NCBI GenBank assembly: GCA_946811185.2
Contig: OX328099.1
Span: 68,142,714 to 68,206,713, forward strand
Reading direction: 5' to 3'
Length of the DNA: 64,000 bases
From: Hippopus hippopus
Lineage: Eukaryota > Mollusca > Bivalvia > Cardiida > Cardiidae
Part shown: in pieces, positions 12,182 to 63,634 of the stretch
Layout: every line of letters starts with the position of its first letter
How positions within the stretch are numbered: the stretch's first letter is position 1
Position numbers and translations under genes: made by a program
The notes under the pieces: model-generated
Told to the model about the DNA's origin: nothing
The model's database searches: none
Seen by the model: only the letters and a program-made list of their open reading frames with translations

Positions 12182-12189
12182 TAAAAAAA

Positions 12190-13051: not shown

Positions 13052-13705
13052 GGCTGCAGAACACAGTTTCGGTGTAAAATGTTGTAGGTACTTGGGACGT
13101 CACACCAAACTTTTCAGATTATTGTCAAAATAATCAACCTGAAATTATAAAAAGCACTGAAATGCAACAGCACAATCCTATTTCTTTAGATTTTATCAAT
13201 AAATCATGTTCAACTTGTGAAATAGTAAAATTACTGATCAATACAGGCAAGTGGGATGGTCGGAAAAAAACTGACAAAATATGCCATTTTAGCCTATATT
13301 CCAAAATTCACAAAATGCAAACCCAGGAAGCTAGCCTGAAAATGCCAAGCTAAATTGAAACTCAAACCAACACATAATCTGGGGATAAAATCCAAAATAG
13401 CACGTTTCCATGCCGTTTTTTCGCAATCTTTCATGCCCTTACCCCACCCTTATATTTGCCGCTAAAAATGGCTGCTAGCTCCGTGACCCCTCAGATTCGC
13501 ATTTGGGGTCAAACCTATAGAACAAAGAAGGAAAGGTCATGACCTCCTGTTTCGTAGAAAAATTAAATGCTTCTTTTCCTTAATCTAACACAATTCATGG
13601 GTGTAATAACTCTTCTTCTTATCAAAATTGCACTGAAAACCTACCTTTCTCAATTATTTCTAATTTTGACCATGGCCAATTCGAAACAAACTGTTTACAG
13701 ATGCC
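13052..13705 (+). repeat. Right 654-bp direct repeat
   Basis: Second copy of the 8845-9498 repeat, the same length and apparently identical. It is preceded directly by TTAA and followed by CTTGTTTC. Confidence 0.9.
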
Positions 13706-16948: not shown

Positions 16949-16957
16949 TTATATTTA
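16949..16957 (+). repeat. Left 9-bp target-site duplication of the foldback element
   Basis: TTATATTTA lies immediately before the element's first base. It matches 8 of 9 bases of TTATTTTTA at 41207-41215. Nine bases is the typical duplication length of Mutator and FB elements. Confidence 0.75.
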
Positions 16958-19900
16958 GGGTGTGTGAAGTTGGCAGTAAGTTCGACATTCGGAGTTCGAT
17001 ATTAAATGTCGAAATGAATATGCTGATGAGCAGTAAATTGGTTATTTTTTCAAACTCAAGGGAAAGTTACGAAAATTAATGAATCCTGATTTTAATATCG
17101 AAATGAATTTCATGCTAAGGGCAGATTCCCGTGTTTTTATGTATGGGCATTTTGGATGGTGTATGAAATCGAATGTAGATTTGAATATAGAAATGAATTT
17201 CATGCTAGCAGCACATTCGAGAAATTTCTGTACGGGCATGAACATGGTGTGTGTAATTGAATGTAGATTTGAATATCGAAATGAATTTCATGCTTGCAGC
17301 ATGATTCGAAAAATTGCTGTACGGGTATTAGATTGTTTATGAATCGAATGTACATTTGAATATCGAACTGAAATTCATGCTAGCAGCAAATTCGCAAAAT
17401 TTCTATAGGAGCATGATGATGATGTATGAAATGGAATGTAGATATGAATATCGAACTGAATTTCATGCTAGCAGCAGATTAGCTAAAATTTTCTACGGGC
17501 GTGAAGATGATGCATGAAATCGAATGTAGATTTGAATGTCGGACTGAATTTCTTGCTAGCAGCAGATATGTAAAAACTTCTCTACGGGCATGTAGATGGC
17601 TTATTTAATCGAATTTAGATTTGGAAATCGAACTGAATTTCATGCTAGCAGCAGATTAGCGAAATTTCTGTAGGGGCATGAAGATGATGTATGAAATCGA
17701 ATGTAGATATGAATATCGAACTGAATTTCAAGCTAGCAGCAGGTTTGCTAAAGGTTCTGTACGGGCATAAAGACTGTGTATAAAATCGAATGTAGATTCG
17801 AATTTCATGCTACCAGTAGAATCGCTAAGTTTTTTTTTTACTAGCAATAGATGATGCGTGAAATCGAATGTAGATATGAATATCGACTTGAATTTCATGC
17901 TAGCAGCAGATTTGCTAAAATTTCTGTACAGGCATAAAGACTGTGTATGAAATCGAATGAAGCTTTGAATGTCGAACTAAATTTCATGCTAGCAGCAAAA
18001 GCACTAAAAGTTCTGTCGGGGCATAAAGACGATATATGAAATCGAATGTAGATATGAATATCGAACTGAATTTCATGTTAGAAGCAGAGTCTCTAAAATT
18101 TCTTTACGGGCATAACGACTATGTATGCCATCGAATGTAGACCTGAATTTCATGCTAGCAGCAATTCGTAAAAACTTCTGTACGGGCATGTAGATGGTTT
18201 ATAAAATCGAATGTAGATTTGAAAATCGAACAGAATTTCATGCTAGCAACAGATTCAGTAAAATTTCTATTTGGGCATGTTGATGGATTTTTGAATCGAA
18301 TTTGGATTTTAATTTCAAACTGATTTTTATGCTAGCAGTAGATTCTCAAAAATTTCTGTATGGTTATATAGATAGAGTGTGAAATTCTAGGTAGATTTTA
18401 ATATCGAACTAAATTTCATGCTAGCAGCAGATTCGCTAAAGGTTCTGTACGGGCATAAAGACTGCGTATAAAATCGAATGTAGATTTGAATATTGAACTT
18501 AATTTCATGTTAGCAGCAGATTCACTAAAATTTCTAGCATCAGATTCGCTAAAATCTATTTTTTTTTACTAGCAATAGATGATTCATGAAATCAAATGTA
18601 GATATGAATATCAAACTGAAATTCATGCTAGCAGCAGATTCGCTAAAATTTCTGTACGGGCATAAAGGCTGTGTATGAAATCGAATGTAGCTTTGAATGT
18701 CGAACTGAATTTCATGCTAGCAGCAGAATCGCTAAAAGTTCTGTAGGGGCATAAAGACGATGTATGAAATTGAATGTAGATATGAATATCGAAAAGAATT
18801 TCATGCTAGCTGCAAATTTGCCAAATTTCTATAGGGGCATAAAGATGATTATTAAATCGAGTGTAGATATGAATATTGAACTGAATTTCATGCTAGCAGC
18901 AGATTCGCTAAAATTTCTGTACGGGCATGAAGATGATGCATAAAATCGAATGTAGATTTGAACATCGGACTGAATTTCATGCAAGCAGCAGATATGTAAA
19001 AACTTCTCTACGGGCATGTAGATGAACTATTTAATCGAATGTAGATTTGAAAATCGAACTGAATTTCATGGTAGCAGCAGATTAGCAAAATTTCGGTAGG
19101 GGCATGAAGATGATGTATGAAATCGAATGTAGATATGAATATCGAACAGAATTTCATGTTAGCAGCAGATTCACTAAAATTTCTTGACTAGCAATAGATG
19201 ATGCATAAAATCGAATGTAGATTTCAATGTCGAACTGAATTTCTTGCCAGCAGCAGAGTCACTAAAATTGTTTTACTAGCAATAGATGATGCATGAAATC
19301 GAAGGTAGATATGAATATCAAACTGAAATTGATGCTAGCAGCTGATACGCTAAAATTTCTGTGCTGGCATAAAGACTGTGTATGAAATCGAATGTAGCTT
19401 TGAATGTCGAACTGAATTTCATGCTAGCAGCAGAATCGCTAAAAGTTCTGTAGTGGCATAAAGACGATGTATGAAATCCAATGTAGATATAAATATCGAG
19501 CTGAATTTCATGCTAGCAGCAAACTTGCAAAATTTCTATAGGGGCATAAAGATGATTATTGAATCGAGTGTAGATATGAATATTGAACTGAATTTCATGC
19601 TAGCAGCAGATTCGCTAAAATTTCTGTACGGGCATGAAGATGATGCATAAAATCGAATGTAGATTTGAACTTCGGACTGAATTTCATGCAGGCAGCAGAT
19701 ATGTAAAAACTTCTCTACGGGCATGTAGATGAATTATTTAATCGAATGTAGATTTGAAAATCGAACTGAATTTCATGGTAGCAGCAGATTAGCAAAATTT
19801 CGGTAGGGGCATGAAGATGATGTATGAAATCGAATGTAGATATGAATATCGAACAGAATTCCATGTTAGCAGCAGATTCACTAAAATTTCTTGACAAGCA

Positions 19901-22900
19901 ATAGATGATGCATGAAATCGAATGTAGATTTGAATGTCGAACTGAATTTCTTGCTAGCAGCAGATTCGTAAAAATTTCTGTACAGCCTAAAGTCTGTGTT
20001 TGCAATCGAATGTAGATTTGAATATCGACCTGAATTTTATGCTAGCAGCAATTCGTAAAAACTTCTGTACGGGCATGTAGATGGTTTATTAAATCGAATG
20101 TAGATTTGAAAATCGAACAGAATTTCATGCTAGCAGCAGATTCGGTAAAATTTCTATTTGGGCATGTTGATGGATTTTTTATTCGAATTTAGATTTTTTA
20201 ATTTCAAACTGATTTTCATGCTAGCAGCAGATTCTCAAAAATTTCTGTATGGTTATATAGATAGAGTGTGAAATTCAAGGTAGATTTTAACATCGAACTA
20301 AATTTCATGCTAGCAGCAGATTTGCTAAAGGTTCTGTACTTGCATAAAGACTGTGTATAAAAGTGAATGTAGATTTGAATATCGAACTGAATTTCATGCT
20401 AGCAGCAGATTCGCTAAAATCTTTTTACTAGCAACAGATGATGCATGAAAACGAATGTAGATATGAATATCGATCTGAAATGCATGCAAGCAGCAGATTC
20501 GCTAAAATTTCTGTGCTGGCATAAAGACTGTGTATGAAATCGAATGTAGCTTTAAATGTCGAACTGATATTCATGCTAGCAGCAGAATCGCTAAAAGTTC
20601 TGTAGGGGCATATAGACGATGTATGAAATCGAATGTAGATATAAATATTGAGCTGAATTTCATGCTAGCAAGAGAATTTGCCAAATTTCTATAGGGGCAT
20701 AAAGATGATGTATGAAATCGAGTGTAGATATGAATATTGAACTGAATTTCATGCTAGCAGCAGATTCGCTAAAATTTCTGTACGGGCATGAAGTTGATGC
20801 ATAAAATCGAATGTAGATTTGAACTTCGGACTGAATTTCATGCAGGCAGCAGATATGTAAAAACTTCTCTATGGGCAAGTAGATGATTTATTTAATCGAA
20901 TGTAGATTTGAAAATCGCACTGAATTTCATGGTAGCAGCAGATTAGCAAAATTTCGGTATGGGCATGAAGATGATGTATGAAATCGAATGTAGATAAGAA
21001 TATCGAACAGAATTTCATGTTAGCAGCAGATTCACTAAAATTTCTTGACTAGCAATAGATGATGCATGAAATCGAATGTAGATTTGAATGTCGAACTGAA
21101 TTTCTTGCTAGCAGCAGATTCGCAAAAATTTCAGTACGGCCTTAAAACTGTGTTTGCAATCGAATGTAGATTTGAATATCGACCTGAATTTTATGCTAGC
21201 AGGAATTCGTAAAAACTTCTGTACGGGCATGTAGATGGTTAATTAAATCGAATGTAGATTTGAAAATCGAACAGAATTTCATGCTAGCAGCAGATTCGCT
21301 AAAATTTCTGTACGGACATGAAGATGATGCATAAAATCGAATGTAGATTTGAACTTCGGACTGAATTTCATGCAGGCAGCAGATATGTAAAAACTTCTCT
21401 ACGGGCATGTAGATGAATTATTTAATCGAATGTAGATTTGAAAATCGAACTGAATTTCATGGTAGCAGCAGATTAGCAAAATTTCGGTAGGGGCATGAAG
21501 ATGATGTATGAAATCGAATGTAGATATGAATATCGAACAGAATTCCATGTTAGCAGCAGATTCACTAAAATTTCTTGACAAGCAATAGATGATGCATGAA
21601 ATCGAATGTAGATTTGAATGTCGAACTGAATTTCTTGCTAGCAGCAGATTCGTAAAAATTTCTGTACAGCCTAAAGTCTGTGTTTGCAATCGAATGTAGA
21701 TTTGAATATCGACCTGAATTTTATGCTAGCAGCAATTCGTAAAAACTTCTGTACGGGCATGTAGATGGTTTATTAAATCGAATGTAGATTTGAAAATCGA
21801 ACAGAATTTCATGCTAGCAGCAGATTCGGTAAAATTTCTATTTGGGCATGTTGATGGATTTTTTATTCGAATTTAGATTTTTTAATTTCAAACTGATTTT
21901 CATGCTAGCAGCAGATTCTCAAAAATTTCTGTATGGTTATATAGAAAGAGTGTGAAATTCAATGTAGATTTTAACATCGAACTAAATTTCATGCTAGCAG
22001 CAGATTTGCTAAAGGTTCTGTACTTGCATAAAGACTGTGTATAAAAGTGAATGTAGATTTGAATATCAAACTGAATTTCATGCTAGCAGCAGATTCGCTA
22101 AAATCTTTTTACTAGCAATAGATAATGCATGAAAACGAATGTAGATATGAATATCGATCTGAAATGCATGCAAGCAGCAGATTCGCTAAAATTTCTGTGC
22201 TGGCATAAAGACTGTGTATGAAATCGAATGTAGCTTTAAATGTCGAACTGATATTCATGCTAGCAGCAGAATCGCTAAAAGTTCTGTAGGGGCATATAGA
22301 CGATGTATGAAATCGAATGTAGATATAAATATTGAGCTGAATTTCATGCTAGCAAGAGAATTTGCCAAATTTCTATAGGGGCATAAAGATGATGTATGAA
22401 ATCGAGTGTAGATATGAATATTGAACTGAATTTCATGCTAGCAGCAGATTCGCTAAAATTTCTGTACGGGCATGAAGTTGATGCATAAAATCGAATGTAG
22501 ATTTGAACTTCGGACTGAATTTCATGCAGGCAGCAGATATGTAAAACTTCTCTATGGGCAAGTAGATGATTTATTTAATCGAATGTAGATTTGAAAATCG
22601 CACTGAATTTCATGGTAGCAGCAGATTAGCAAAATTTCGGTATGGGCATGAAGATGATGTATGAAATCGAATGTAGATAAGAATATCGAACAGAATTTCA
22701 TGTTAGCAGCAGATTCACTAAAATTTCTTGACTAGCAATAGATGATGCATGAAATCGAATGTAGATTTGAATGTCGAACTGAATTTCTTGCTAGCAGCAG
22801 ATTCGCAAAAATTTCTGTACGGCCTTAAAACTGTGTTTGCAATCGAATGTAGATTTGAATATCGACCTGAATTTTATGCTAGCAGGAATTCATAAAAACT

Positions 22901-24611
22901 TCTGTACGGGCATGTAGATGGTTAATTAAATCGAATGTAGTTTTGAAAATCGAACAGAATTTCATGCTAGCAGCAGATTCGGTAAAATTTCTATTTGGGC
23001 ATGTTGATGGATTTTTTATTCGAATTTAGATCTTTTAATTTCAAACTGATTTTCATGCTAGCAGCAGAATCTCAAAAATTTCTGTATGGTTATATAGATA
23101 GAGTTTGAAATCCAAGGTAGACTTTAATATCGAACTAAATTTCATGGTAGCAGCAGGTTTGCTAAAGGTTCTGTTCTTGCACAAAGACTGTGTATAAAAC
23201 TGAATGTAGATTTGAATATCGAACTAAATTTCATGCTAGCAGCAGGTTTGCTAAAATTGTTTTACTAGCAATAGATGACGCATGAAATCGAATGAAGATA
23301 TGAATGTCGAACTGAATTTCATGCTAGCAGCAGATTCGCTAAAATTTCTGTACGGGCATAAAGGCTGTGTATGAAATCGAATGTAGCTTTGAATGTCGAA
23401 CTGAATTTCATGCTAGCAGCAGAATCGCTAAAAGTTCTGTAGGGGCATATAGACGATGTATGAAATCGAATGTAGATATAAATATTGAGCTGAATTTCAT
23501 GCTAGCAAGAAAATTTGCCAAATTTCTATAGGGGCATAAAGATGATGTATGAAATCGAGTGTAGATATGAATATTGAACTTAATTTCATGCTAGCAGCAG
23601 ATTCGCTAAAATTTCTGTACGGGCATGAAGATGATGCATAAAATCGAATGTAGATTTGAACTTCGGACTGAATTTCATGCAGGCAGCAGATATGTAAAAA
23701 CTTCTCTATGGGCAAGCAGACGATTTCTTTAATCGAATGTAGATTTGAAAATCGAACTGAATTTCATGCTAGCAGCAGATTCGGTAAAATTTCTATTTGG
23801 GGCATGTTGATGGATTTCTGATTCGAATTTAGATTTTTTAATTTCAAACTGATTTTCATGCTAGCAGCAGAATCTCAAAAATTTCTGTATGGTTATATAG
23901 ATAGAGTGTGAAATTCAAGATAGACTTTAATATCGAACTAAATTTCATGCTAGCAGCAGATTTGCTAAAGGTTCTGTTCTTGCATAAAGACTGTGTATAA
24001 AACTGAATGTAGATTTGAATATCGAACTAAATTTCATGCTGCAGCAGGTTTGCTAAAATTGTTTTACTAGCAATAGATGATGCATGAAATCGAATGAAGA
24101 TATGAATGTCGAACTGAATTTCATGCTAACAGCAGATTCACTAAAATTTCTGTATGGGCATAAAAGCTGTGTATGAAATCGAATGTAGCTTTGAATGTCG
24201 AACTGAATTTCATGCTAGCAGCAGAATCGCTAAAAGTTCTGCAGGGGCATAAAGACGATGTATGAAATTGAATGTAGATATGAATATCGAAAAGAATTTC
24301 ATGCTAGCAGCAAATTTGCAAAATTTCTATAGGGGCATAAAGATGATTTATGAAATCGAGTGTAGATATGAATATTGCTAGGAGCAGATTCGCTAAAATT
24401 TCTGTACAGGCGTGAAGTTGATGCATAAAATCGAATGTAGATTTGAATTTCCAACTGAATTTCATGCTAGCAGCAGATATGTAAAAACTTCTGTACGGGC
24501 ATGTAGATGATTTATTTAATCGAATATAGATTTGAAAATCGAACTGAATTTCATGCCGGCAGCAGTTTAGCAAAATTTCTGTAGGGGCATGAAGATGATG
24601 TATGAAATCGA
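16958..24611 (+). repeat. Left arm: tandem array of an about 89-bp repeat
   Basis: Roughly 85 units. A typical unit reads ATGAAATCGAATGTAGATAT, GAATATCGAACTGAATTTCA, TGCTAGCAGCAGATTCGCTA, AAATTTCTGTACGGGCATAA and about nine further bases. Unit variants differ mainly in the last third (ACGGGCATGAAGATGATG, TACTAGCAATAGATGATG, TATTTGGGCATGTTGATGG). The array starts with unique terminal sequence shared with the far end of the right arm. It stops abruptly in ATGAAATCGATCCAG, inside a family B MITE remnant. Confidence 0.95.
19595..22964 (+). repeat. Higher-order duplication within the left arm (two 1.68-kb units)
   Basis: The segment 19595-21279 recurs at 21280-22964 with an offset of about 1684-1685 bp, which is 19 basic units. 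Diagnostic variants, such as the TATTTGGGCATGTTGATGG unit and the GCAAGAGAATTTGCC unit, recur in the same order. A partial third round continues to about 23.75 kb. Confidence 0.85.
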
Positions 24612-24735
24612 TCCAGATCCAGTCAGTTGTTAGACAAGATTGATTTTTATAGGTCCATAATTATATGATAACTTGCTTGGTATTATGCATCACAGAAATG
24701 CATCAAGCCTCCTTGTGCCAGAACTCAGCTGCATT
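24612..24735 (+). mobile_element. Truncated family B MITE at the arm-loop junction
   Basis: Only the hairpin-distal part remains: CAGTCAGTTGTTAGACAAGA, the ATAATTATATGATAACTTGC stretch, and a decayed terminus after AAATGCATCAAGCC. The missing half coincides with the end of the left array. Confidence 0.7.
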
Positions 24736-24970
24736 ATATTGATTCTATGTCGCGAGGAAGAAGCATGATATCATATCCTTCAGTGTTTTATCCATTTATA
24801 CAGTACATACTTTTACTTTTGGTTGAATGGAGTTTGATAAAAAGATTTAATCAATTAAAATACTTCATATACATGTATGGTCCGAAAAAAGTAATTTTTC
24901 GGGCTAATTGTTTTGTACTTGCAGGAAGATCTTCAAATATTGGTCCGGAACCAATACCGTTACTATAATT

Positions 24971-25193
24971 GGCCTGCAACACGCGAAAAGAGGCACTCGG
25001 ACATTTGCATAGTGTTGTTTCGGATCAGCCTGCGCACTCCGCTTTTATGTGATTTTCTGTTTTGCGTAAGTCTACTGTTGGACAAAATCTAGTTTAGTCG
25101 TAAAGTGCCGTCTCGGATTAGCCTGCGGGGACTGGTGATCCGAGACGACACTTTACGCAAATGTCCGAATGCCCCTTTTCGCGTGTTGCAGCC
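24971..25193. mobile_element. Family D MITE
   Basis: A 223-bp element with terminal inverted repeats CTGCAACACGCGAAAAG and CTTTTCGCGTGTTGCAG. Inner blocks CGGACATTTGC, TCGGATCAGCCTGCGC and TTTACGCAAATGTCCG also pair. The second copy is at 58697-58953. Confidence 0.85.
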
Positions 25194-25609
25194 ATATTGT
25201 TCTCTAAATAACAGAGATGTTGCTTAACCCTTATCCTGTTAAATAAGTGAAATGAAAACTACCAATTTACACGTGTGTTTGTGTGTTAGTGTGACAAACT
25301 TTGCATTTGTACTTAACTGACTAGCTGTCTGTAATGCCTTTCTTACATTTTTTTGCAATAATAAGTCTGCCACGACATTCCACACCCATTTATGTTTTCA
25401 TTGCAAGTTTTAAATAAATCTTTGATTACCTTGTGGTTATTTATAAATGACCCTTGACTCTTTCAATCGTTCTGTACACGTTTCACTGGAGCACGTAATT
25501 ATTATCCATTTCTGCCACATGCCTTCAATATATTTTATGAAAAAGTCAAATTCATCCCCAAATAGATCGATTCTGGTCGACATGCTTACATTCGTAGTCG
25601 ACAACCATT

Positions 25610-28186
25610 TCATTTTAGCCTCCGAAAACTGTGTTGGAATACACGCAGAAGTGCATTACATACTGGTGTACTGGTGTATTCTCGTAGTAGTTTTCCGAAT
25701 GTTTCGTTTTCAGGGTATTTCAAATGCAATACTGTGAGGCAGTTGTTGATAGTACAAGTATTGGACATATTACAGTCCTTCATTACACCTCCCCATTTCA
25801 TAACGGCTGGAAAATTCAATTCTGTGTTCACTGATGGTATACCCTTTAGTCTGGCTGGTCCTTTGTGGTACTTTTTTGCCTTTTAGGTTTCCAACAAACC
25901 TCTTCTTTAGTTTCTATTTTCAAGGATTCATCTTTCTCGACTTTGCTCCTTCTTTTAGTACCTTTTCTTGCTAAGGGATAATCATGCTCTAGTAGCCTGC
26001 AAGTTGCTGCTTTTCTCAGAGCAATAACAAATTTTGATGGTCTTTCATGTAAACTTAGTCCTATGTCATTTTTTATTATTCTAAACCAGTCTTCAACCGG
26101 TGAGTTGGTGTCCTGGGTAAATATCTCATTTCTTTCATTGATTTAAACATCAATCCGGTCCACAAGGGCAATAGGTACATAAACTTGTTCAAACAAGTGA
26201 TAACTTCAGGACAATGATAGTCATTCGCTTGCTGTTTATCCGAGCTATTGGTGTTTACATGGCTTGTGCATTCGGCCGAAATTCGTTAAAAAAATCTGTG
26301 TTAAAGGTGAGTAGACATTTATGGTTTTATTTTACTTTATCAGTTTTAAGATCTACAGAATATGTGTTGACTGGTGTATTGTTTTCGATTTCTGTTCTTC
26401 TTAAACGTTCCTGAAGTATTTCCAAAGCACAATTTACTTCATCGTTCGTTCTCCTACTCATAAATATGATGCAGAGATCTCTGAATACATCTTCTGCCTC
26501 ACTCGACGTCATGGTGTTTTGAAGAGCAGCAAATGCACTGTAGGTCGAACTTCTTAGTGATTTTATACTTTTGGAAATTTTTGATAAACTTTGTGAGCAT
26601 ATGAGCTACACAGATTTGATGAACATTGAAATGATCAGTTTTACTGCACTCGGTTAGAATCTCATAACACTTTGTCAAATACGTCTTGACAGAAAGGCCG
26701 TTGAACTCTTTTAGGGAAGCCTGAATAATAGCATAGCTAAAATCAGTTTCTACCTTAGAAACCTGAACCGAGCTACCAATCTTACTCAAAGCCCAAATAA
26801 TTTTAGAAAGAAACAGCTGAATCCGTGGTCTTGTGTGTTCTGTCGTGATCATGTCCTCTCCTGATACTGGTGGCAAATTCTGGTCTGGCTTTATCACCAC
26901 AGAATATAGATAGGGTCTCTTCTGGCCTAGAATATTTGAAATGACGGAAGCTGTTGCGTTTGCATACAACTGTCGATTTCCTGATAACGATAGAAATTTG
27001 ACTTTTTTGATCTGCTTATCAGAAAACATTATGATCGTGAATGGATTCAGTCCTAAATTGCGTATGTAACGATTATTATCTGACTCATAGCTTTCCTTCA
27101 GCAATAATTATTGCAGTTCTGCCATCACATTACTGTGTATTTGCTCTTTTTTCATTTGCTCGGAAATTATCTTTCTCAGTGTCGAGGGGGTTGGTACTTT
27201 GGTATAATTTCCTAAATTCAGCTTGCCTTGATTTGCTTCTGAGAGTTTATTGTAATACGTAAAGGGTCCTGATGTAGACGATATTTCAGATGCAATATCT
27301 TGCCTTCTTCTGTCGGTAATGTGCCTTCTGTTTAATTCGTCTGCAGAATGCTTTATTGTGCCAGTTACTGTTATGTTGACCGATATTTCCTGTTGATCGG
27401 CGTTTGGCTCTGTTGTGATTGTATGTATATATGTGCAACGGCACTCCTCTCCCTTACCGACTGCCTTAGCAAATAAGAAAGGTGCCTTAACTTTTCCACT
27501 TTCTGCTGCTTTATGTGATGATATTTGTAAACTAAGACACACCCTGGTGAGACAGCAAAATAATGTCCAGTTTTGACGTAACCTTCGAACTTTGGATTTT
27601 TTGGAACCGTATATCTCGTTTCTGGTTTGATTTCTTCCCATTCCTTTTTAGTGATGACAAATGAAAAATTGCTAGGAATTTCAATGATTTGCTTTGGATT
27701 CTGCCTCGTTTCTTTTCCAAGATCCATTTTCTTATTGTCATTTAGACTATTGCATGTCGCAATGAGCGTTTCGGTTCTCAATTCATCCTGATTTTTCCTT
27801 ACTGTACTGGTCGATTAAACACTAGATTCCCTATCCTCGTTTGAACCATAACGCTCGAAAGAATGTCTTTCGCCATTTTGGACAATCTCTTGTTCCATAT
27901 TTTGGTCTGTTTCACAAAAGTAAATTAAGTCCTGCCCTAGGTCAGGTTGATCTCTCATATTACGTACCCCTCTAAGTTCAAGCTCACAAGGTAAAGTAGA
28001 CAGTTGTCCTTGATTAATCCTAGTGTTAGAATTCTGCGCGACTTCAGATGTACTTTCATAGTTGAAATTGACTGTTTGAACTATAGTCTTTTCCTCTTTT
28101 GACGCTTTTCGTTTCATTAGAACCATTTTTCGTAGCGTTTCAAGCTCTGTCTTGTGATGTTTCAGATTTTTCCCTTTGATCCTCAA
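25610..28186 (-). pseudogene. Decayed Mutator/NOF-like transposase in the foldback loop
   Basis: Reading the minus strand from 28186, coding-like blocks continue through several frames. These are a polar N-terminal block (28186-27815), a block with KPETRYTVPKNPKFEGYVK (27781-27545), and one with KGEECRCTYIHTI and FTYYNKLSEANQGKLNLGNY (27560-27108). Then come a core with NPFTIIMFSDKQIK, TDFSYAIIQASLKEFN and HQICVAHML (27104-26499) and a helical block (26512-26327). The last blocks hold NSPVEDWFRIIKND (about 26115) and finally 25831-25610. Order and motifs resemble metazoan MULE-type transposases as I remember them. The place where an LFLDATG-type motif is expected reads LYANATAS, so a probable catalytic Asp is lost. 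Frame changes occur near 27550, 27106, 26505 and 26150. It is a relic, and some breaks could be introns or assembly errors. Confidence 0.6.
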
Positions 28187-29239
28187 AACCGTTTTCTACA
28201 ACAAAATGGGAACAATACTGTGTCTTTCTATCACTGAAAATATTTTCTTGAAAAATCATGTACTGAAAATTAATGAAAACATGAAATAGAATATTAAATA
28301 GACAACGATGGTCCTAAAACATCAGCTTGGTTAGCCCTTTAATTGTCTGTTACATGCATTGAAAACTTCCAAATATGGAGTTCCAAAAAATTTTTAGTTG
28401 TTTTGCAATCGGTAATTCGTAAATTTTCCGACACGCGTATATATCTGCGTGTACAGTATATAAACGCTCACTGCTATCACAATTATTGTTAGTTTTAGAA
28501 TTTGTGTGGATAATAATTGTCATACTTTTTAATAAAAAGAAAAAAATACTGTGTAACATAGTCAAGGCTGATTGAACTAAAGTAAGATCATTCAGCTACG
28601 TCGAAAAAAAAAAAAAAAAACTTATTACTTAAAACCCAGAGACTAAATAAGGGTAAGTAAATGTTCTTTTTCACAACCATTGGACGTCATGCAAAAAATT
28701 ACAGCATATTTTTGTTATTCTTCATATGCTGAGTGTGTCATGTGAACATACATTACCTTTACTCTTGTAGACTAATTAAGTACAAGTAGTAGTAGTAGTA
28801 GTCGAATTCTGTAGTCATCCATCGGTAATACATTCACCCGTTTCCATTTCTAAAAAACTTTATACTATTTGCATAAGGTTGCCTGCTTAAAAATAGCTGC
28901 AAAGACAAAGGCTTAAAGCAGATAAGTATTTCTTAACTAACTTTCACTTTACATGAGAAGTATATACATGAAATTGGATTTGATTTGGCCGTGCGGTTTC
29001 TTATGAAAAATCCAAACTGGGTCTTAATTTCTACTCATGTGAGCTAAAAAACTCTATCTGTCATAAATCTATACTTATATTCGACTCAGGTTTGCTTTTA
29101 GAGGTTAGAATCTTTCTGACAGTAATAACAGATAAGAACTTACCATCACGATGACACTTTTCTATACAAATTGACTCGTCTTCTAGAATTTAGAAGCCAT
29201 GAATTACAGGGCACTGTTTTCACAACTTGCTGCTTGTTT
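28187..29239. other. Non-coding right part of the foldback loop
   Basis: No gene was seen. The sequence is AT-rich, with the end of a family F copy (ATTCAGCTACGTCGAAAA, about 28590) running into poly-A and a short AGT microsatellite (28786-28803). Degenerate arm repeats begin near 29240. Confidence 0.5.
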
Positions 29240-31557
29240 TTGCCGATCTGCTACTGACATGAGATTTAAATCGACGATGAAATCTTCATTCGACTTCATA
29301 AACAATTTACATGCTCAAATCGAAAGTTTCACGAATCAGTTGCCGACATGAAACGAGTAGAATATAGAATAATCTATATTCGATTGCATACACCATCTGT
29401 ATGCCCGCGTTGAAATTTTTGTGTATCATATTGCAGCATGAAATTCATTTTGAAATTCAAATCGTTATTCGATTTTATACGTCATTTACATGTATATATG
29501 CAAAGACAATGTTGTTCTGCTCGCATGAAACTCGTGTCAATATTAGATTTTACACACTTTATACATGTACATTCATTTATTGATCTCCATTATTATCATT
29601 TTTATTGTTTTTCCGCCAAATTGGTGAACATTTATTTTAACAACAAAAATAGAATATATATAACAGAAGAGAAGGAAAAAGAAATCAAGAATAAGAAGTA
29701 TACAGCAAAAATGGTAAGAAAGAGAGCCATTGTACAACTAAATTACAACCTGAAAAAGGCACTTGCAAAAAATATGAAAATCAAGTTTTGGAACTTTGCA
29801 ACGAAAACGAAATGCAAGGTCAAAAATGGACCAAACAAAAATAAGGAACAAAAGAATAAGGAAATGAGTGGACAAAAGAAACAGACGTCTAGAATATATT
29901 CATTAAGTGAGCAAGTGAATATATATCTATAAAATAAATAATCACTCAATCACTCGATCAATCATTACCAAAAGAAGTGCTCTAGTTAGCGTCCCCTTAA
30001 AAGATAATATATATACTGCGAAATTCCATATAAGACAGGCTAATATGTTCATAAATTAATGTTGGTTTTTGCCGATGTGCTGCTGACATTAGATTCAAAT
30101 CGATAGTGAAATCTTTATTCGATTTCATAAACTGTTTACATGCTCAAATTGAAAGTTTCACTGATCAGTTGCCGACATAAAACTCGTATCAGTTATTAAT
30201 TCTATATTTGATTTCATAGACCATTTATATATATGTCCGCAGAGAAATTATTCCGAACCATATATAAGTATGACATTCAAATCATTATTCGGTGTCATAC
30301 ACCATCTATATACACCTTGCCTATACCCATATGGAAATTTCGCGAATCCGTTGTTGGCATGAAATTAATATCGATATTCAATATTCAAATAGATGTGGAA
30401 TTTCTTATAAGAATTATATGTACAGATATTTTTTCTGTAATGAATGTACTGCCGTCATGAAATCATACCAATATTTAAATACCAATGTTGGTATTTTTGC
30501 GAATCGGCTGCAAGCATGAAATTCAGCTCGATATTCCAAATGATGTTTAATTCCAAGTACCATTGATATATCCATATGGAAATTTTTGCAAATCTGCTGC
30601 AAGCATGAAATTCAGTTCGATATCTAAACCTACTCTTCATTTAAAACGCCATTTTCATGCCCAAATCAACATTCGATTTAATTCATCATCTACATGCCCA
30701 TATTGATTTTTATTTTTGCGATTCTGCTGCAAACAGGAAATTCAGTATTCAAACCTAAATTTGATTGTATAAACCATCAATATGTCCATATAGATTTTTT
30801 TTCCGAATCTGCTGCTAGCATAAACTTCACTTCGACATTCAAATCTACATTCGATTTCACACATCGTCTAAATGCCTGAAAAACGACCAAAGAGCGAATC
30901 TGCTGCTAAAACGAAATTTATGCTAGAGTGAAATGACATGCTCATGTAGATATTTTAGTGAATTTGCTGCTTGCATGAAAAACATTTCAAAATTCAAATC
31001 TGCATTCGATTTGATACACCATATTATATACCAATATAAAAGTTTTAATAAATGTGCTGCTTGCATGAAATTCATTTCGATATTCAAATTTGAATTCGAT
31101 TTCATACACAATGTACATACCCATGGAGAAATTTCGATGAATCTGCTGCTAGCATGAAATTCAGTCTGAATTTTGTTTATACATTCCATTTCATATACCA
31201 TCTTCTTGTCAATTGAAAAACCTTGGTAAACTGCTGAAAGCATGACATTCAGTTTGATTTGGTGTCAAACACAATCGATTTGTCTTTACAGATTTTTTTC
31301 TGATCTGCTGATAATTCAGCTTGATGTGAAATCCACATTCTTTATCAAATAACATATGTACATGCCCGTAGAGAACTTTTTGCAAATCTGCTGCTAGCAT
31401 GAAATTCATTTTGATAGTAAAAATGATTTTGATCCCATGCATTATTGATATTTCTGTATAGATTTTTTTTGAGAAACTGCTACTAGCATGAAATTTGGTT
31501 CAATATGCAAATCTACATTCCATTTCAAACACAATCTTCATGCCCATATTTATCGAG
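29240..31557 (-). repeat. Right arm, inner part: degenerate inverted 89-bp array
   Basis: Units read in inverse orientation to the left arm (GCTGCTAGCATGAAATTCA, ATCTACATTCGATTTCATAC). They are much more diverged and partly spaced out by unrelated AT-rich DNA (29560-30050). The array stops at ATGCCCATA (31540s), where the pogo-like element enters. Confidence 0.85.
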
Positions 31558-34500
31558 GATTGACGTCTTTTCGATACCATAACCGCTAAACGCAGACAGG
31601 AAAGTACTGTTACTCTTGATAAACTTCAAATTATTCATTAATTTTCCTTTCATTCTGCTCTAAATCTATCGTCTAATCAACAAAAATTTCTTTCATACGG
31701 ATGAAAACATTCATAAACAACATGGAAAAGAACTATATGTACAGCGACAAGAATTTCCCGACCTTGACCTGTTTTCGAGACTTTTTCGTATCTTCTTGTT
31801 GGAGAGTTCTTATACAGTCTTGACCAAAAGTATTGGCACCAAATGAGTTGTGAAGGTGTAAACAAAGGACAGGACATATGTTCACAGTAAGTGATTAAGT
31901 TTAACACTCAGAATTTTAGACTTGCCCATATTAACAGTATATTTTTAAAACCACATCATTTATGTAAACCAAATTGAAAACTATGTCCAATAAAAGATAG
32001 AAAACATTAATGGAAAAGGGTCATGTTTTTCAATGTTTACTCTTCTGTGCACATGCTTTTTTCACTGTCAACGTGACATGGGCACACAAACTCAGAATGG
32101 CGTCGTACAACGGTTTGATTGCAACAAAACTTCAAGTGAGTCCAATGATTGCAGCCGGGATAGTCACACTTAGCCCATTTGGTTATAACAAGTGACACAC
32201 AGTTTTTTAATTCCTCTGGTTCCCAACGTTTACAAAAGCAGCATTTTTCCTCTTCGTTTATTTCCTCATCGGATGAATCTGATGATTGGACAGACGCTAC
32301 AGTGACACCAGAGATCCCAGGCTGTTCACTATCCATGTGCTGTTTCTTTGAGCTTACTTTTGATGTATTTGTTGAACCATTTCTCTTTTTGGCAGATTTT
32401 CCCTTTGTTTCAGAAGCTTTCTTCATGGATTGACCAACGTGTTCTCGAATTTCTTTTTCTTTTTCAGACGAAGTAATTAAAGTTCCGGATACAATTTTGC
32501 TTATGTTGTTTTTCTGTGTTTTCTGTTCAAATGTCTGTTTATCTCTGATAACCTTTTCAACTGTTATGAAGTAATTTTCTTTATCAACACCTGATGCTCT
32601 GTGCTGACATTCGTCTAATGCTTCACAAGATGTTTCATTTTCTGTTTCAGAGGGGGATTCTGGTGGAATATATGCCTTTGATGGTGCCAACTGAGAATCT
32701 AGGATCTGTTCTGGCTTGTACGGGTATATTCCAGTCCTTTTGAAGGAATACCTCAGGTTAGATGAAGACAATGCAGCTGTGTAAGCTGTGCAGGCCAGAG
32801 AACATACATTATACCTGGTTATCTTTGATGAAGGGTTTGCCCTCAAAAATTTGTGACACTCAGAATTGTATATCCTCTGCAAAAGCCCAAAACAACCAAC
32901 ATCAAGGGGCTGTAACACATGACTCGTGTGAGCTGGTAACACAAAAAGGCGAATGTTATGTTCTCTGGCCCAATCATGTACTGGTAATGTTACGTGGGAT
33001 TTATGGCCATCAAAAATCAGTATCACAGGCTGCCTTTCATTTTCTCTTTGTATGTACTTAATAAAGTGCGAGTCAAGATACTCTAGGAATACTGATGAAA
33101 TGGACCACCCGGAGTCTGAAACTGTCCCCTGAACACCAGGGCTTGCTCCATCTAGTAGTTCAGAGCGCATACGTTGGCCTTTAAAGACAAAGAAAGGGGG
33201 TATTTGTGTCCCAATGGCATTTCCACATCCTATAATTGTTGTGGTGCAAGATCTATCAGATGTAATAGCGGGTACTGATTTATTGCCCATACAATGTAAG
33301 GTGGATTGTGCTCTGTCTGAATTCCCTTTTCATCGACATTGTAGATACATTCTGGCTTTTGCATCAAATCATCAGTTTGAAGAGCAGTTTTTAGATTGGC
33401 AAAGTACTGAGTAATGTTTTTACTTGATGTGGCTTGTGCCCTGTATTTACTTAAAGCTCTAGGTTTCAATACTTTCATTTCAGGCCATCTGCATAGAAAG
33501 CCGCGGAACCAGCAGTCACTTAATTGGTGATCCATGTCACGTTTACACCAAGGGATACAGCATAGTTGGAAGCTTGGTCCACCACTTCAACACGAGAGTA
33601 ACCGTAACCCAGTTCTGCCATGGCTTTTAAATGGTTGACAAACAGGGCCTCTTCCTCCTGACTAAATAATGCCTGGGGCCCTGACGACATCGTCTCTGGA
33701 TCGACCCTTCCAGCCACTCTGTCCCGAAGTGTTGTCTGTGGTACACCATACTGTCGAGCTGCTCGCTTCACTGGCATATTCCTTTCACGTACAGCTTGGA
33801 AGGCATTAAACATGGCTGTTGGTGAATAGATTCTGTACCTTGACACAGATGGCAATAGATTTATCTGAAATTAAAGATTAATCTAATAATTAAAAAAGAA
33901 TCTTAGAAGCTGCTTTTGTTATTTTTTTCTGAGTATATTGGGAGGGGAATCGGGCGGGATACATACACTCTCTCTCAATAAACTATAATAACTAAATATT
34001 GTCTCCCCTTTGAAATAGTGGTCTGTTAAAACAGGTACATTAAAAATGATAGAGTGATAAAAAATTGTGTATGAACTTTTCACACACCCTGTACTACTAA
34101 AGTCAATATTACGTTTGGGACATTATTTTTTGTCACAAACATGATTTCAGAATAGTAAATCTTTTATCTATATTGCGGAAGAGTGATGAACTTTTGAAAC
34201 ACCCTGTACATCCCGGAAGTTTATAGTCATGTGACAGTCATGTGACTTCGTGATAGCAGACGAACGGGAACACCTCTGTACGTATTCTGATTGTCAAATT
34301 TTGTTTCAGCATGAATATTATCGAAGTTGCTATGCAACCCCCAAAAAATAATAGCAAAAATCGTCATTTTATGAAATAGTTACTAAAATTAACATTTACT
34401 CACTTGTTTTTGTCGCATTTTATTGGTTTTTCTGGATCAGCGATAAAAGTTGCTTTCCGTTGCTTCGAGTAAACAAACTGTGACGTCATTGTACATCCGG

Positions 34501-34565
34501 GTGTCGCAATAAAGGGAAAGAACTGTAGGTCTCGAAAATAGGTCAGTATCGAAAACGCGTCAATC
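31558..34565 (-). mobile_element. Pogo/Tigger-like DNA transposon nested in the right arm
   Basis: About 3.0 kb that interrupts the array. Its ends carry inverted repeats: GATTGACG then TTTTCGATAC on the left, and GTATCGAAAACGCGTCAATC on the right. Pogo elements duplicate TA. The right end is followed by TA, but on the left the expected TA is not obvious. Array sequence resumes beyond 34580 (AATCTGCTGCTAGCATG). The minus strand carries the transposase. Non-coding sequence at 33870-34545 has short inverted blocks such as CACACCCTGTAC and ACACCCTGTAC. Confidence 0.75.
32037..33855 (-). pseudogene. Pogo/Tigger-like transposase with C-terminal PHD-like zinc finger
   Basis: Three minus-strand blocks in order. 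Block 33855-33520: a psq-type helix-turn-helix (NMPVKRAARQYGVPQTTLRD) and the start of a CENP-B-type binding domain (FSQEEEALFVNHLKAM). Block 33535-33230: the rest of that domain (SDCWFRGFLCRWPEM) and the first catalytic Asp (CIYNVDEKG). Block 33290-32037: the remaining DDE core with D94 (LIFDGHKSHV) and D130 (HVLQPLDVG), a DD35D spacing typical of pogo. A charged linker follows, then a Cys/His-rich PHD-like finger (CCFCKRWEP...CDYPGCNHWTH...CPCH). The blocks are joined by single-base frame changes near 33525 and 33262, so the gene as read is broken. The catalytic triad itself is preserved. Confidence 0.8.
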
Positions 34566-34869
34566 TACAATATATAAATATTTTTCTTTTTATAAATCTG
34601 CTGCTAGCATGAGAATGTGTTCGATATTTAAATCTACATTCGATTTCATACACCATTTCCAAACCCATATGAAACTTTTGACAAATCTGCTGCTACAATG
34701 AATTTCATTCCAAAATTCAAATTTGCATTTGATTTCATACACCCTGTATATAACCATATGGAATTTTTGACGAATCTGCTGCTAGCATAGCACCCAGTTC
34801 GATATTCCAAACTGCATTCGGTTTCATACACCATTTGCATCCCTGCATAAATGTTTCGACGAATTTTAC

Positions 34870-35079
34870 GGTGAAGAGTGTGGGACTCGTGAACTGGAAG
34901 CTCGAGCCTTGCTGGATCCACTTTGCTTTTCGTACAAGTATCCTTGGACAAGACATTTTAGAGGCTTAGCATAGTACTGGTGAAACCCAGGACATACATG
35001 CTTATGTTAGCTGTCGCCCTGAGATGACTGAAATATTGTTGAGAGCGGCGAAAAACAACATAAAAATCAATCAATCAAA
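34870..35079 (+). mobile_element. SINE copy, mollusc type, in the right arm
   Basis: A degraded tRNA-like head (GAAGCTCGAGCCTTGCTGG) is followed by the recurrent body GTATCCTTGGACAAGACA and AGCTGTCGCCCTGAGATGAC, and a (TCAA)n tail. The same body occurs at 45563, 49008 and 56713. Confidence 0.8.
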
Positions 35080-38000
35080 TCTACATTCGATTTCAAACAC
35101 CATCTACATGCCAATTTAAATCTTTTATGCGAATTTGTTACACTAATGATATTCATTTCGATATTCAAATCTGCATTCATTATCATATCATAAACCATCT
35201 ACATGTACATGGCAGTAAAGAATTTTTTTTGTAAATCTGCTGCTAGCATAAAAGTCGATTCGACATACAAATCTACATTCGATTTCATACACCATCTACA
35301 TGTCCGTACAGAAATTTTGGCGAATCTTCTACAAGCATGAAAATCAGTTCGATGTTCCAATCTAGTTTCGATTTCATACTTCATCTACATTTCCATGTAG
35401 AAATTTTGGCGAATCTGTTGCCAGCATGAAATTCAGTTCGATACTCTAAATTTGATTCGATTTCATGACGCTTCTTCATTTTTGAATAGAAATTTCAACA
35501 AATCTCCTGCGAGCATGAAATTCGGTTTGATATAGAAATCTCCATCCGATTTTAAAGACCATCTACATGCCCATGTAATTTTTTTTTTGCGAATCTGTTG
35601 CCAGCATGAAATTCAGTACGACAATCAAATCTACATTCGATTTTATACACCATCTTCATCCCTGTAGATAAAATTTGACAAATCCGCTGCTTGCATGAAA
35701 TTCTATTCGACAGTCATGCATCATGCATTTCATGCATCATCTACAGGCCCTTATAGAATTTTTTGCGAATCTGCTGCTCGCATAAAATTAAGTTTGATAT
35801 TCAAATCTATATTCGATTTGATACACCATCTTCAAGCCTGTACAGAATCTTTACAAATCTGTTTCTAGCATGAAATTCAGTTCAAAATTCAGATCTACAT
35901 TCGATTTCATACACCATCTACAGGCCCGTTCAGAAATTTTGCAAATCAACTGCGAGCATGGAATTTAGTTTGATATTCAAATCTACATTCGATTTGTTAC
36001 ACCATCTTCATGCCCGTTCAGAAATTTTGGCGAATTTGCTGCTAGCATGAAATTCAGTTCAATATTCAAATCTACATTCCATTTCATACACCATCTAGAG
36101 GCCCCTTAAGAAATTTTGCGAATCTGCTGCTAGCATGAAATTCAGTTCTATTTTCAAATCTACATTCGATTTCATACACCTTCTTCATGCCCGTACAGAA
36201 TCCTTACGAATCTGCTAGCATGGAATTCAGTTCGATATTCATATCTACATTCGATTTCATACATCATCTTCATGCCCTTACAGAAATTTTGCGAATCTGC
36301 TGCTAGCATGAAATTCAGTTCGATATTTAAATTTACATTCGATTTCATACACAGTCTTTTTGTCTGTACATAAATTTTAGCGAATCTGCTGCTAGCGTGA
36401 AATTCAGTTCGAAATTCATATCTACCTTCGATTTCATGCATCATCTATGGCTAGTAAAGAAATTTTAGTGATTCTGCTGCTAGCATGAAATTCAGTTCGA
36501 TTTTTAAATCTACATTCGATTAAATAAACCATCTACATGCAAGTACAGAAGTTTTGGCAAATCTGCTTCTAGCAAGAAATTCAGTTAAAAATTCAAATCT
36601 ACATTCGATTTCATGCATCATCTTCACGCCCGTATAGAAATTTTAGCGAATCTGCTGCTAGCATGAAATTCAGTTCGATTTTCATATCTTCATTTGTTTT
36701 CATACATCATCTTCGTGTCCTTACAGAAATTTTTCGAATCTGCTGCTAGCATGAAATTCAGTTCGATATTCATATCTACATTCGATTACATACAAAGTCT
36801 TTATGCTCGTACAGAAATTTCAGCGAATCTGCTGCTAGCAGAAAATTAGTTTGACATTCAAAACTGTATAAGATTTCATGCATCATCTTCACGCTTCTAT
36901 AGAAATTTTAGGGAATTGGCTGCTAGCTTGAAATTCAGATCGATTTTCTTATCTACATTTGATTTCATACATAATCGTTATGCCCCTACAGACATTTTGC
37001 GAATCTGCTGCTAGCATGAAATTTATTGCGATATTCAAATCTACATTCGATTACATACACAGTCTTTATGCCCGTACAGAAATTTTAGCGAATCTGCTGC
37101 TAGGATGGAATTCAGTTCATATCTACATTCCATTTCATGCATCTTGTATCGCTAGTAAAGACAGTTTAGCGATTCTGCTGCTAGCATGAAATTCAGTTTG
37201 ATTTTCAAATCTACAATCGATTTCATACAAAGTCTTTTTGCCCGTCCAGAAATTTTAGCGAATTTGCTGCTAGCAAGATAATTAGTTTCACTTTCAAATC
37301 TATGTTCGATTTCATGCATCATCTTCACGCACGTACAGAAATTTTAGCAAATCTGCTGCTAGCATGATATTCAGCTCTGTGTTCATAACCACATTCGATT
37401 TGATACACACTCTTCATGACATTACAGAAATTGTGCAAATCTGCTGTTAGCATGAAATTCAGTTCGATATTCATATCTGTATTCTATTTCATACATACTC
37501 TTCATGCCTCGACAGACATTTTGCGAATCTGCTGCTAGCATGAAATTCAGTTCGATATTCAAATCTATATCGATTTCTTGCAACATCTATATGCCATTTA
37601 AGACATTAAGGCGAATATGCTGCTTTCAAAAAATTCAGTTTGATATACAAATCTACAATTAATTTAATACACAATCTACATGCTTTTGAAGATATTTTGT
37701 CGAATCTGCTGCATGCATGATATTCATTTCGATACTGGAATCTACTTTCGATTTGAAACACAATCTACATGCCCGTACAGAAATATTACGAATCGGCTGC
37801 TATCATGAAATTCAGTTCGAAATAAAAATCTATATTCGATCTAAACACCATCTACAAGCACGTACAGAAGATTGTACAAATCTGCTGCTAGTATGAACTC
37901 AGTTGCACATTCAAGTTTACATTCGATTTCAAACACAATCTTCATGCCCGTATAGAAATTTTGCGAACCTGTTGTTAGCTTGAATTGCAGTTTGATATTC

Positions 38001-38501
38001 ATATATACAATCGATTGCATACACCATCTTCAAGCCCAAACATAATTTTAAGCGAATCTGCTGCTAAGATGAAATTCAGTTCGACATTCAACTTTACGTT
38101 CGATTTCAAACACCATCTTGATGCCCGTATAGAAATTTTGCGGATATGTTACTAGCATAAAATTCAGTTCGATTTTTAAATCTACATTCGATTTCATATA
38201 TCATCTACAGGGCCGTACAGAAAGTTTTGCGAATCTCCTGCTGAAATGAAATTCAGATCGACATGCAAATCTACAATCGATTTTAAACACCATCATGATG
38301 CCCGTATAGAAATTTTGCAAATATGCTGCTAGCCATGATGAAATTCAGTTCGATATTCTAGTCTATATTCGATTTGATACATCATGTACATGCCCGTACA
38401 GAAAGTTTTGCTAATCTGTTGCTAGCATGAAATTCAGTTCGATATTTAAATCTACATTCGATTTCATACATAATCTACAGGCCTGTTGAGAAATTTTTGC
38501 G

Positions 38502-38721
38502 GTGTCCGTGGTTGTGAGGTAGAGCGTCTGCCTCGTAACCATAGGGTCCTGAGTTCGATACCCGGGAGCGGGTGTCAACTTTGGGATTTCCATTGGCCCA
38601 CACATTCGGCGCAAGTACTGGTGTAGTTCCCAGGATGCAGAATCGAGAGAGAGATTAGTATAAGTTGTAAGAACTTGTTTCTCAATCAATGTAAAATAAA
38701 TATGTTTAAACTAACTGAACT
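38502..38721 (+). mobile_element. tRNA-derived SINE with 11-bp target duplication
   Basis: A 220-bp insertion flanked by AAATTTTTGCG on both sides (38491-38501 and 38722-38732). The head has an A-box-like GTTGTGAGGTAGAGCG and a B-box-like GAGTTCGATACCC. The 3' end is a CTAACTGAACT-type tail. Its body differs from the other SINEs here, so it is a second family. Confidence 0.9.
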
Positions 38722-41206
38722 AAATTTTTGCGAATCTGCTGCTAACATAAAATTCAGTTCTGTGTCCAAATCTACATTCGATTTGATACACCATCTTCAA
38801 GCCTGTACAGAATCTTTACGAATCTGCTGCTAGCATGAAATTCATTTCGAAATTCAAATCGACATTCGTTTTTCATACACCATCTACAGGCCCGTTCAGA
38901 AATTTTGCAAATCTACTGGGAGCATGAAATTCATATTGACATTTAAATCTACATTCGATTTCTTTCACCATCTTCATGCCCGTTCAGAAATTTTTGCGAA
39001 TCTGCTGCTAGCATGAAATTCAGTTCGGTATTAAAATCTACATTCGATTTCATACACCAATAACAGGCCCGTTAAGAATATGCTGCTAGCATGATATTCA
39101 GTTCGACATTCAAATCAACATTCGATTTCATACACCATCTTCATGCCCGTACAGAATTTTTACGAATCAGCTACTAGTATGAAATTCAGTCCGACATTCA
39201 AATCTATATTCGTTTCAATACACCATCTTTAGGCTCGTTCAGAAATTTTGACAAATCTGCTGCTAGCATGAAATTCAGTTCGATATTCAAATCTACATTC
39301 GATTGAATACACCATTTTCAGACCCGTACAGAAATTTTGCGAATCTGCAGCTAGCATGAATTTAAGATCGATATTCATATCTACATTCGATTTCATACAT
39401 CATCTTCATGCCCCTATTGAAAATTTTCGAATCTGCTACTAGCATGAAATTCATTTTGATATTCAAATCTGCATTCGATTTCATACACAGTCTTTATGCC
39501 CGTACAGATATTTTAGCGAACCTACTGCTAGCATGAAATTCAGTTCGACATTCATATCTTCATTCGCTGTCATACATAGTCTTTATGCCTGTACAGATGT
39601 TTTGGCGAATCTGCTGCTAGCAAGAAATTCACTTTGATTTTCAAATATACATTTTATTAAATACAATGTCTTTATGCCCGTACAGGAATTTTAGCGAATT
39701 TGCTGCTACCAATAAGATTAGTTTGACACTCAAATCTTTATTTCATTTCACGCATCATCTTCACGTACATACAGAAATTTTAGCGAATCTGCTGCTAGCA
39801 TGAAATTCAGTTCAATATACATATCTACATTCGATTTTATGCATCATCTTCATGACCCAACAGAAATTGTGCGAATCTGCTGCTAGCATGAAATTCAGTT
39901 CGATATCCATATTTAAATTCGATTACATACAAAGTCTTTATGCCCATACAGAAATTTTAGCCAATCTGCTGCTAGCAAGAATATTAGTTCGACATTCAAA
40001 TCTACATTCGATTTCAGGCATCATCTTCACGCACGTACAGAAATTTTAGCGAATCTGCTGCTAGCATGATATTCAGCTCGATAACCATATCTACATTCGA
40101 TTTCATACAGACTCTTCATGCCCCTACGGACATTTTGCGAATTTGCTGCTAACATGAAATTCAGTTCGATATTCAGATCTACATTCGATTTCATACACAG
40201 TCTTTATGCCTGTACAGAAATTTTGCGAATCTGCTGTTAGCATAATATTCAGTTCGATATTCATATCTACATTTGATTTCATACCCAGTCTTTATGCCTG
40301 TACAGAAGTTTTGAGAATCTGCTGCTTGCAAGAAAATTAGTTTAACATTCAAATCTATGTTCGATTTCATGCATCATCATCACGCACGTACAGAAATTTT
40401 AGCGAATGTGCAGCTAGCATGAAATTCAGTTCGATTTTCATATCTACGTTCGATTTTATACATCATCTTCATGCCCGTACAGAAATTTTGCGAATCTGCT
40501 GCTAGCATGAAATTCAGTTCGATATTCAAATCTACGTTCGATTTCATACACAGTCTTTATGCCCGTACAGAAATTTTAGCAAAACTGCTGCTAGCATGGA
40601 ATTCAGTTCGATATTCATATCTACAATCGATTTCATGCATCATCAATTGCTAGTAAGGATATTTTAGCGATTCTGCTGCTAGCATGAAATTTAGTTCGAT
40701 TTTCAAATCTACATTCGATTAAATACACCATCTACATGCCAGTACAGAAGTTTTGGCGAATTTACTGCTAGCATGAAATTCAGTTCTATATTCAGATCTA
40801 CATTCGATTTCATAAACAATCTAATACCAGTACAGAAATTTTTCGAATCTGCTGCTAGCATGAAATTCAGTTCGATATTCAAATCTACATTTGATTGCAT
40901 ACACCATCTTCATGCCCGTCCAGAAATTTTGCGAATCTGCTGCTAGCATGAAATTCATTTCGATATTCAAATCTTCATTCGATTTCATACACCATCCATC
41001 TGGCCATACATAAAAACACGCGAATCTGCTGCTAGCATGAAATTTTTTTTATAATAAAATCAGGATTTATTAATTTTCGTAACTATCCCTTTAGTTTGAA
41101 AAAATAACGAATCTACTGCTGCATGAAATTCAAATCATCAGCATATTCATTTCGACATTGAATATCGAACTCCGATTGTCGAACTTACTTCCAACTTCAC
41201 ACATCC

Positions 41207-41215
41207 TTATTTTTA
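41207..41215 (+). repeat. Right 9-bp target-site duplication of the foldback element
   Basis: TTATTTTTA follows the terminal CACACATCC directly. It pairs with TTATATTTA at 16949-16957. Confidence 0.75.
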
Positions 41216-63213: not shown

Positions 63214-63222
63214 TTTTTATTG

Positions 63223-63629: not shown

Positions 63630-63634
63630 TTTTT

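Follow-up and report, generated by a model that had tools for sequence, protein, structure and literature searches.

The 64,000-nucleotide stretch of the Hippopus hippopus genome analyzed here (contig OX328099.1; hereafter, the window) carries two arrays of a short repeat in opposite orientations. Are these arrays two blocks of general satellite DNA or the arms of a single transposon? The initial annotation had proposed a foldback transposon whose arms resemble satellite DNA and whose Mutator-type transposase has decayed, and the ends, the duplications, the arms, and the relic gene bore this out. The element spans window positions 16958–41206 (24,249 bp). We conclude that a foldback element with satellite-like arrays is real in the sense of that proposal, and we put at about 0.87 the probability that it is a cut-and-paste foldback DNA transposon that once had its own transposase and is now dead. 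The evidence consists of fixed inverted ends, 9-bp duplications, arms built from a common 88-bp repeat, a broken DDE transposase gene, and complete copies lacking that gene.

Ends, target sites, and the dispersed family

The two termini match in inverted orientation: over the first 200 bases, 168 of 185 ungapped positions agree, and there is one 15-base gap. The coordinates first given for them are right. A nonrepetitive terminal segment is common to both ends, also as first described. The flanking 9-bp repeats match at eight of nine positions, a degree of identity that was reached by 84 of 200,000 random 9-mer pairs and by 66 of 200,000 pairs drawn from the flanks. The proposed target-site duplication (TSD) is confirmed. 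The features of the ends are as follows:

16949–16957, plus strand: left TSD, TTATATTTA
16958–17104, plus strand: left terminal domain, beginning GGGTGTGTGAAG (alignment of the ends and of family ends)
41045–41206, minus strand: right terminal domain, its end reading GGATGTGTGAAG as reverse complement (alignment of the ends)
41207–41215, plus strand: right TSD, TTATTTTTA

Between these ends, a repeat profile search found 86 plus-strand units of an 88-bp repeat in the left arm and 90 minus-strand units in the right arm, with no further units elsewhere in the window at an E value of 0.01; the arrays had been described as inverted 89-bp repeats. The left arm is 7,654 bp long. The right arm, from 41206 down to 29271, measures 11,936 bp, of which three inserts make up 3,468 bp; the remaining length is about 8.5 kb. 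Long inverted arms composed mostly of tandem repeats are the mark of a foldback element.

We then used the terminal 201 bp as a query against the 1.07-Gb genome. Among 609 first-look candidates, 40 were scored and part of those were fetched, giving 33 readable ends at 23 loci, the window included. All 33 ends have an array just inside them, with 5 to 86 units within 8 kb (the window’s left arm is the longest), and the first unit begins 162 or 163 bp from the end in 27 cases, 75 bp in 4, 147 bp in 1, and 161 bp in 1. No units occur within 1 kb outside any of the 33 ends, where the flank examined was mostly 200 bp, nor outside nine ends at eight loci overlapping these, eight of those ends with about 1.5 kb of flank. 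The arrays, therefore, have fixed ends wherever ends were read, and these ends are not joined to unrelated sequence. The repeat consensus derived from 370 units (13 loci other than the window) and that of the window disagree at 1 of 87 positions.

Both ends were found for 10 copies. A perfect 9-bp duplication flanks six of them (6,873, 8,843, 9,893, 10,071, 11,155, and 37,306 bp), and a duplication matching at eight of nine positions flanks a 7,841-bp copy and the window copy. Fixed ends and duplications thus recur at independent places (8 of 10 pairs), and the duplications fall in the 8- to 11-bp range, usually 9 bp, of the Mutator superfamily. When flanks were paired wrongly, none of 90 pairings reached eight matches, and the best three reached seven. 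A 1.6-kb copy (C5:33037211-33039221) lies at the center of a palindrome, and its 200-bp flanks are mutually inverted copies.

These ends bear on two other explanations. The arrays could be a general satellite in two blocks that are inverted, and acquired their ends, by chance; the unit is indeed satellite-like (88–89 bp, repeated dozens of times), and the oyster genome has short satellite arrays at scattered sites (PMC8268682). For the copies read, the fixed ends at 33 of 33, the unit-free flanks examined, and the TSDs at 8 of 10 pairs make this very improbable. Equally hard to credit is a Helitron- or Helentron-type element carrying satellite repeats, such as the oyster Helentrons with their satellite-like repeats (PMC7492417, PMC8268682). 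The inverted ends, the 9-bp duplications at complete copies, and the relic of a DDE transposase all speak against it. Helitrons are not known to make a target duplication.

Arms, loop, and transposase relic

Since right-arm units reach down to 29271, the true loop is 24612–29270, about 4.7 kb. The loop of the initial annotation was more than twice too large; its 31550–34588 part is a nested pogo-like element. The arms and loop, with their inserts, comprise the following:

17105–24611, plus strand: left arm array, 86 units (repeat profile)
19558–20857, plus strand: left-arm block with a copy 1684 bp downstream at 96–100% identity in 200-bp windows (self-comparison)
24612–29270, no strand: true loop (array limits)
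24974–25191, no strand: nested palindromic element in the loop, 218 bp, ends CTGCAACACGCGAAAAG
25446–27632, minus strand: decayed DDE transposase with stops and frameshifts (tblastn with relatives; reading frames)
27815–28195, minus strand: open frame upstream of the transposase match, without a Pfam match, which may be the 5′ part of the transposase
28563–29270, no strand: inner domain, also in C1:5596438-5606508 and L027 at 84.5–86.9% (copy comparison)
29271–31549, minus strand: inner degraded right arm, units 16–33% from the consensus (repeat profile)
29534–30099, no strand: spacer within the right arm
31550–34588, no strand: nested pogo-like transposon, with inverted ends near 31558 and 34565 and minus-strand frames with DDE_1 and HTH_psq
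34589–41044, minus strand: main right arm array (repeat profile)
34865–35073, no strand: short insert, perhaps a short interspersed nuclear element (SINE), a class guessed from its ATCA tail
38502–38721, no strand: insert with an 11-bp duplication, AAATTTTTGCG, presumably a tRNA-like SINE by its box-like motifs

The pogo-like insert splits one 88-bp unit and has no clear target duplication. The spacer has a 431-column match (87.5%) at the corresponding place in C1:5596438-5606508 and, therefore, probably belongs to the family plan instead of being an insert. DNA related to the 218-bp palindromic element occurs at window positions 58689–58843, in both giant copies described below, and at locus L023. 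At L027:2438-9028, six head-to-tail 1.1-kb units, about 99% identical, each contain the family’s inner domain; we read this array as a second, larger satellite that appears to have started inside an element.

The outermost three units are similar between the arms (0.10–0.14 different, against 0.21–0.22 for the mean unit pair), and divergence is greatest in the inner right arm (0.33 within). For 129 of 162 window units, the nearest relative lies in the same arm. The left arm contains more near-identical blocks at spacings of 1,153 and 2,837 bp, and the same block comparison found none above 0.9 in the right arm. The left-arm blocks fit recent growth by unequal exchange, mostly within one arm, with a false duplication in the assembly as the alternative. 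In view of the apparent recent growth of the left arm, we dropped equal net arm length as a design feature.

The loop gene supports the proposed decayed Mutator-like transposase. The D, D, and E motifs are present in 14 aligned relatives, together with a CxxH motif between the second D and the E; the window copy has N in place of the first D. As hAT transposases share CxxH, this motif is not exclusive to the Mutator superfamily. A structure model of a relative, built from 14 sequences, is closest to ISCth4, followed by P and hAT transposases, and has an IS256/Mutator-like fold. (An earlier model from 3 sequences, with a predicted local distance difference test score of 42.8, was discarded as too poor.) We read the window’s transposase as Mutator-like. 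A Pfam scan detected neither a FLYWCH finger nor a MULE (Mutator-like element) domain in the window pieces or the six close relatives. A PHD finger was absent from the six close relatives (P0001, P0002, P0003, P0006, P0007, and P0008) and present in the remote relatives P0011 and P0014, with P0015 at the cutoff, in a scan of the relatives other than P0004, P0005, P0009, and P0013.

Searches of viral_contigs and genome_contigs confirmed no relative of the transposase, and viral_contigs held no exact copy of the 23-base core of the repeat. Among sequences of solved structures, a profile search returned a single row, a designed protein with an E value of 0.77, which we took as chance. Two relatives are located in a bacterial bin named Sedimenticola. 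This genus includes symbionts of bivalves. Together with the C1q-domain frame noted below, this points to a probable molluscan host.

The family may instead have been moved by another transposase, with the loop gene a passenger or a nested transposon, given that the gene is found at 1 of 23 loci. However, its position is between the arms and next to an inner domain that gene-less copies also have, no second pair of ends was seen around it, and the 9-bp duplications suit a Mutator-like enzyme. We consider an unrelated source of transposase improbable.

Several observations weigh against our main reading of the element. The transposase was found in the window alone among the 23 loci; of the 22 others, nine are complete copies, and the remainder were read from one end over 8 to 11.5 kb. 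Complete copies without the gene, therefore, exist. Pfam found no MULE domain in the window pieces or the six close relatives, although the lineage may lie outside the curated Pfam MULE profiles. Two of the 10 pairs lack a TSD: the 32-kb copy on C8 and the 1.6-kb copy on C5 in its palindrome with inverted flanks. Because the query contained a portion of the first unit, the association of end and first unit is partly selected (that with further units is not). Finally, of the 162 window units, 33 are closest to a unit of the opposite arm, one at a distance of 0.034, so exchange has not been confined to one arm.

Giant copies and neighboring DNA

Two copies are larger than that in the window: C1:34460071-34497376 (37,306 bp, with a perfect 9-bp TSD) and C8:49812072-49844127 (32,056 bp, with no TSD). 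They have 22.4 kb in common over positions 2037–29050 of the C1 copy, in long and mostly collinear blocks, with a further 1.4-kb block out of order, and are 94.7% identical over 22,995 aligned bases. The common loop adjoins the array at one end in both giants and also at locus L021; L023 carries another part of it. At the opposite end, the giants differ: L020 and L025 match the final 6 kb of the 37-kb loop, the 32-kb copy does not, and the end of the latter matches L023. At least one giant may, therefore, be a chimera.

The common loop contains no long conserved frame. Frames common to both giants are at most 126 aa, and a few have an excess of third-position changes (e.g., 4, 2, 9); the longest frames lie in an insert resembling a long interspersed nuclear element (LINE) outside the aligned part. 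Genes with introns may still be present in this loop.

Both giants could be small elements swollen by insertions, recombinants, or segmental duplicates that never moved at their present size. The LINE, which the 37-kb copy contains but the aligned part of the 32-kb copy lacks, would fit such an origin, as would the missing TSD of the 32-kb copy, the different loci matched by the other ends, and a loop full of repeats that occur elsewhere. Conversely, the giants share 22.4 kb of mostly collinear sequence that abuts the array at one end in both, and in L021; their 200-bp flanks show no relationship, and a perfect TSD surrounds the 37-kb copy. We regard a swollen or chimeric origin as quite possible, somewhat short of even odds. 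From their sequences, large gene-less units have probably been copied, which a TSD at one of two complete copies does not prove.

Other features lie elsewhere in the window. At window positions 8845–13705, two identical 654-bp direct repeats (8845–9498 and 13052–13705, 100%) flank an intact 630-aa frame with a Pfam Mutator match (PF20700, E = 9e-36), and, on the opposite strand, a frame with PF05551 (homing-endonuclease zinc loop). It is odd for terminal direct repeats to surround a Mutator-type transposase. Positions 60202–64000 contain frames with DUF2738 and chromo domains, which we take to suggest a Maverick-like element; similar DNA is found at L025:5166-8960, inside or beside a foldback copy. 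A 161-aa frame with a C1q domain (PF00386, E = 4e-17) lies at 50035–50520 on the minus strand. The window has no Rfam match at the gathering level and no tRNA.

Known foldback systems and a proposed mechanism

Drosophila FB/NOF elements have tandem repeats in their arms and, in some copies, a coding loop. Like the element described here, they combine long inverted arms with 9- to 10-bp duplications; the terminal inverted repeats (TIRs) of FB4 are about 700 bp (PMC8277862), whereas the arms here are 7.7 kb and, with three inserts left out, about 8.5 kb, of an 88-bp unit. This comparison is one of plan, not of the NOF protein. Tm1 of root-knot nematodes, a Mutator/Phantom foldback element, likewise has a 9-bp TSD, composite ends, tandem arm units, and mostly transposase-less copies (PMC3169594). 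It differs in having 1–9 consecutive units of about 14 bp, against 5–86 of 88 bp, and a 496-aa transposase carrying Pfam FLYWCH and MULE domains, neither of which was found here; some Phantom members are without the FLYWCH finger (PMC6446971). Tetris of Drosophila virilis has foldback arms with satellite units of about 220 bp, which also form long arrays, and TSDs of 8–10 bp (PMC4079207), but its TIRs reach 1735 bp and no transposase is known for it. Rehavkus, a Repbase group beside the MULEs, has a 9-bp TSD, a minisatellite near one end, and a PHD finger (PMC6446971). Compared by description rather than sequence, it resembles our family in the PHD finger of remote transposase relatives and differs in the lack of one in the six close relatives, in its TIRs of 26–400 bp, and in a repeat placed before the 3′ TIR rather than in both arms.

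Other relatives suggest what such repeats may do. Galileo, of the P superfamily, has long arms whose internal repeats hold extra binding sites (PMC3688188, PMC3573991), and a domain of its transposase was shown to bind these repeats; the authors proposed that many binding sites may offset the cost of length (PMC3688188). The parallel lies in the long, repeated arms and in the extra sites that our family’s repeats may offer, although Galileo’s arms reach about 1.26 kb and its superfamily is different. In arthropod MULEs, the first three bases are conserved as G/C, and the TIRs may contain several binding sites (PMC13359780); Muta1 has nine subterminal 12-bp repeats, a 145-bp TIR, and the catalytic residues D214, D283, H307 in CxxH, and E419 (PMC5225508). 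Arthropod MULEs resemble our family in these end bases and possible repeated sites, and Muta1 in its subterminal repeats; the longest arthropod TIR given in the text is 1193 bp (1527 in a table row) and the longest element 9972 bp. Repeat-built ends with 8- to 10-bp duplications are on record in Tm1, Tetris, and Muta1 (PMC3169594, PMC4079207, PMC5225508). Among openly licensed PubMed Central papers, in the portions available, we found no description of arms this size for comparable elements; the lengths named (up to 1,735 bp for Tetris, 145 bp for Muta1, up to about 1.26 kb for Galileo, and 1193 bp, or 1527 in the table row, for arthropod MULEs) fall well below those here. Foldback transposons are well known, and arms this long, with relatives of up to 37 kb, are unusual.

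A box, GAATTTCATGCTAGCAGCAGATT, suggests how the arms might act. It occurs at about base 75 of the family terminus and also within the units, among whose best-conserved parts it ranks. The terminus holds one degenerate copy, partly missing from the window’s left end, and at bases 75–99 it clearly matches the repeat unit, unlike the outermost 70-odd bp. We do not claim homology of that outermost part to the unit; 65 of 2,000 shuffles reach its observed score. The transposase would recognize the terminal domain together with the box, and repetition of the box would offer it many binding sites in each arm. It would cut at the GGG ends, insert with a 9-bp stagger, and also mobilize gene-less copies, perhaps very large ones. 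The arms would lengthen and shorten chiefly through exchange inside a single arm, and this would account for their unequal lengths and for the near-identical blocks in the left arm.

More speculatively, and we hold this doubtful, the satellite arms might serve as transposase loading platforms, letting the family move in trans far larger DNA than ordinary Mutator-like elements do (30 kb or more, with a loop above 20 kb). If so, the family would be a source of new satellite arrays and giant mobile segments. One dispersed family combines arms of 5–86 units with elements of about 6.9–37 kb at sites with perfect duplications. Two questions can, therefore, be tested in a single genome: whether a transposase is helped by repeated arms in moving large DNA, and whether foldback transposons are where satellite arrays originate.
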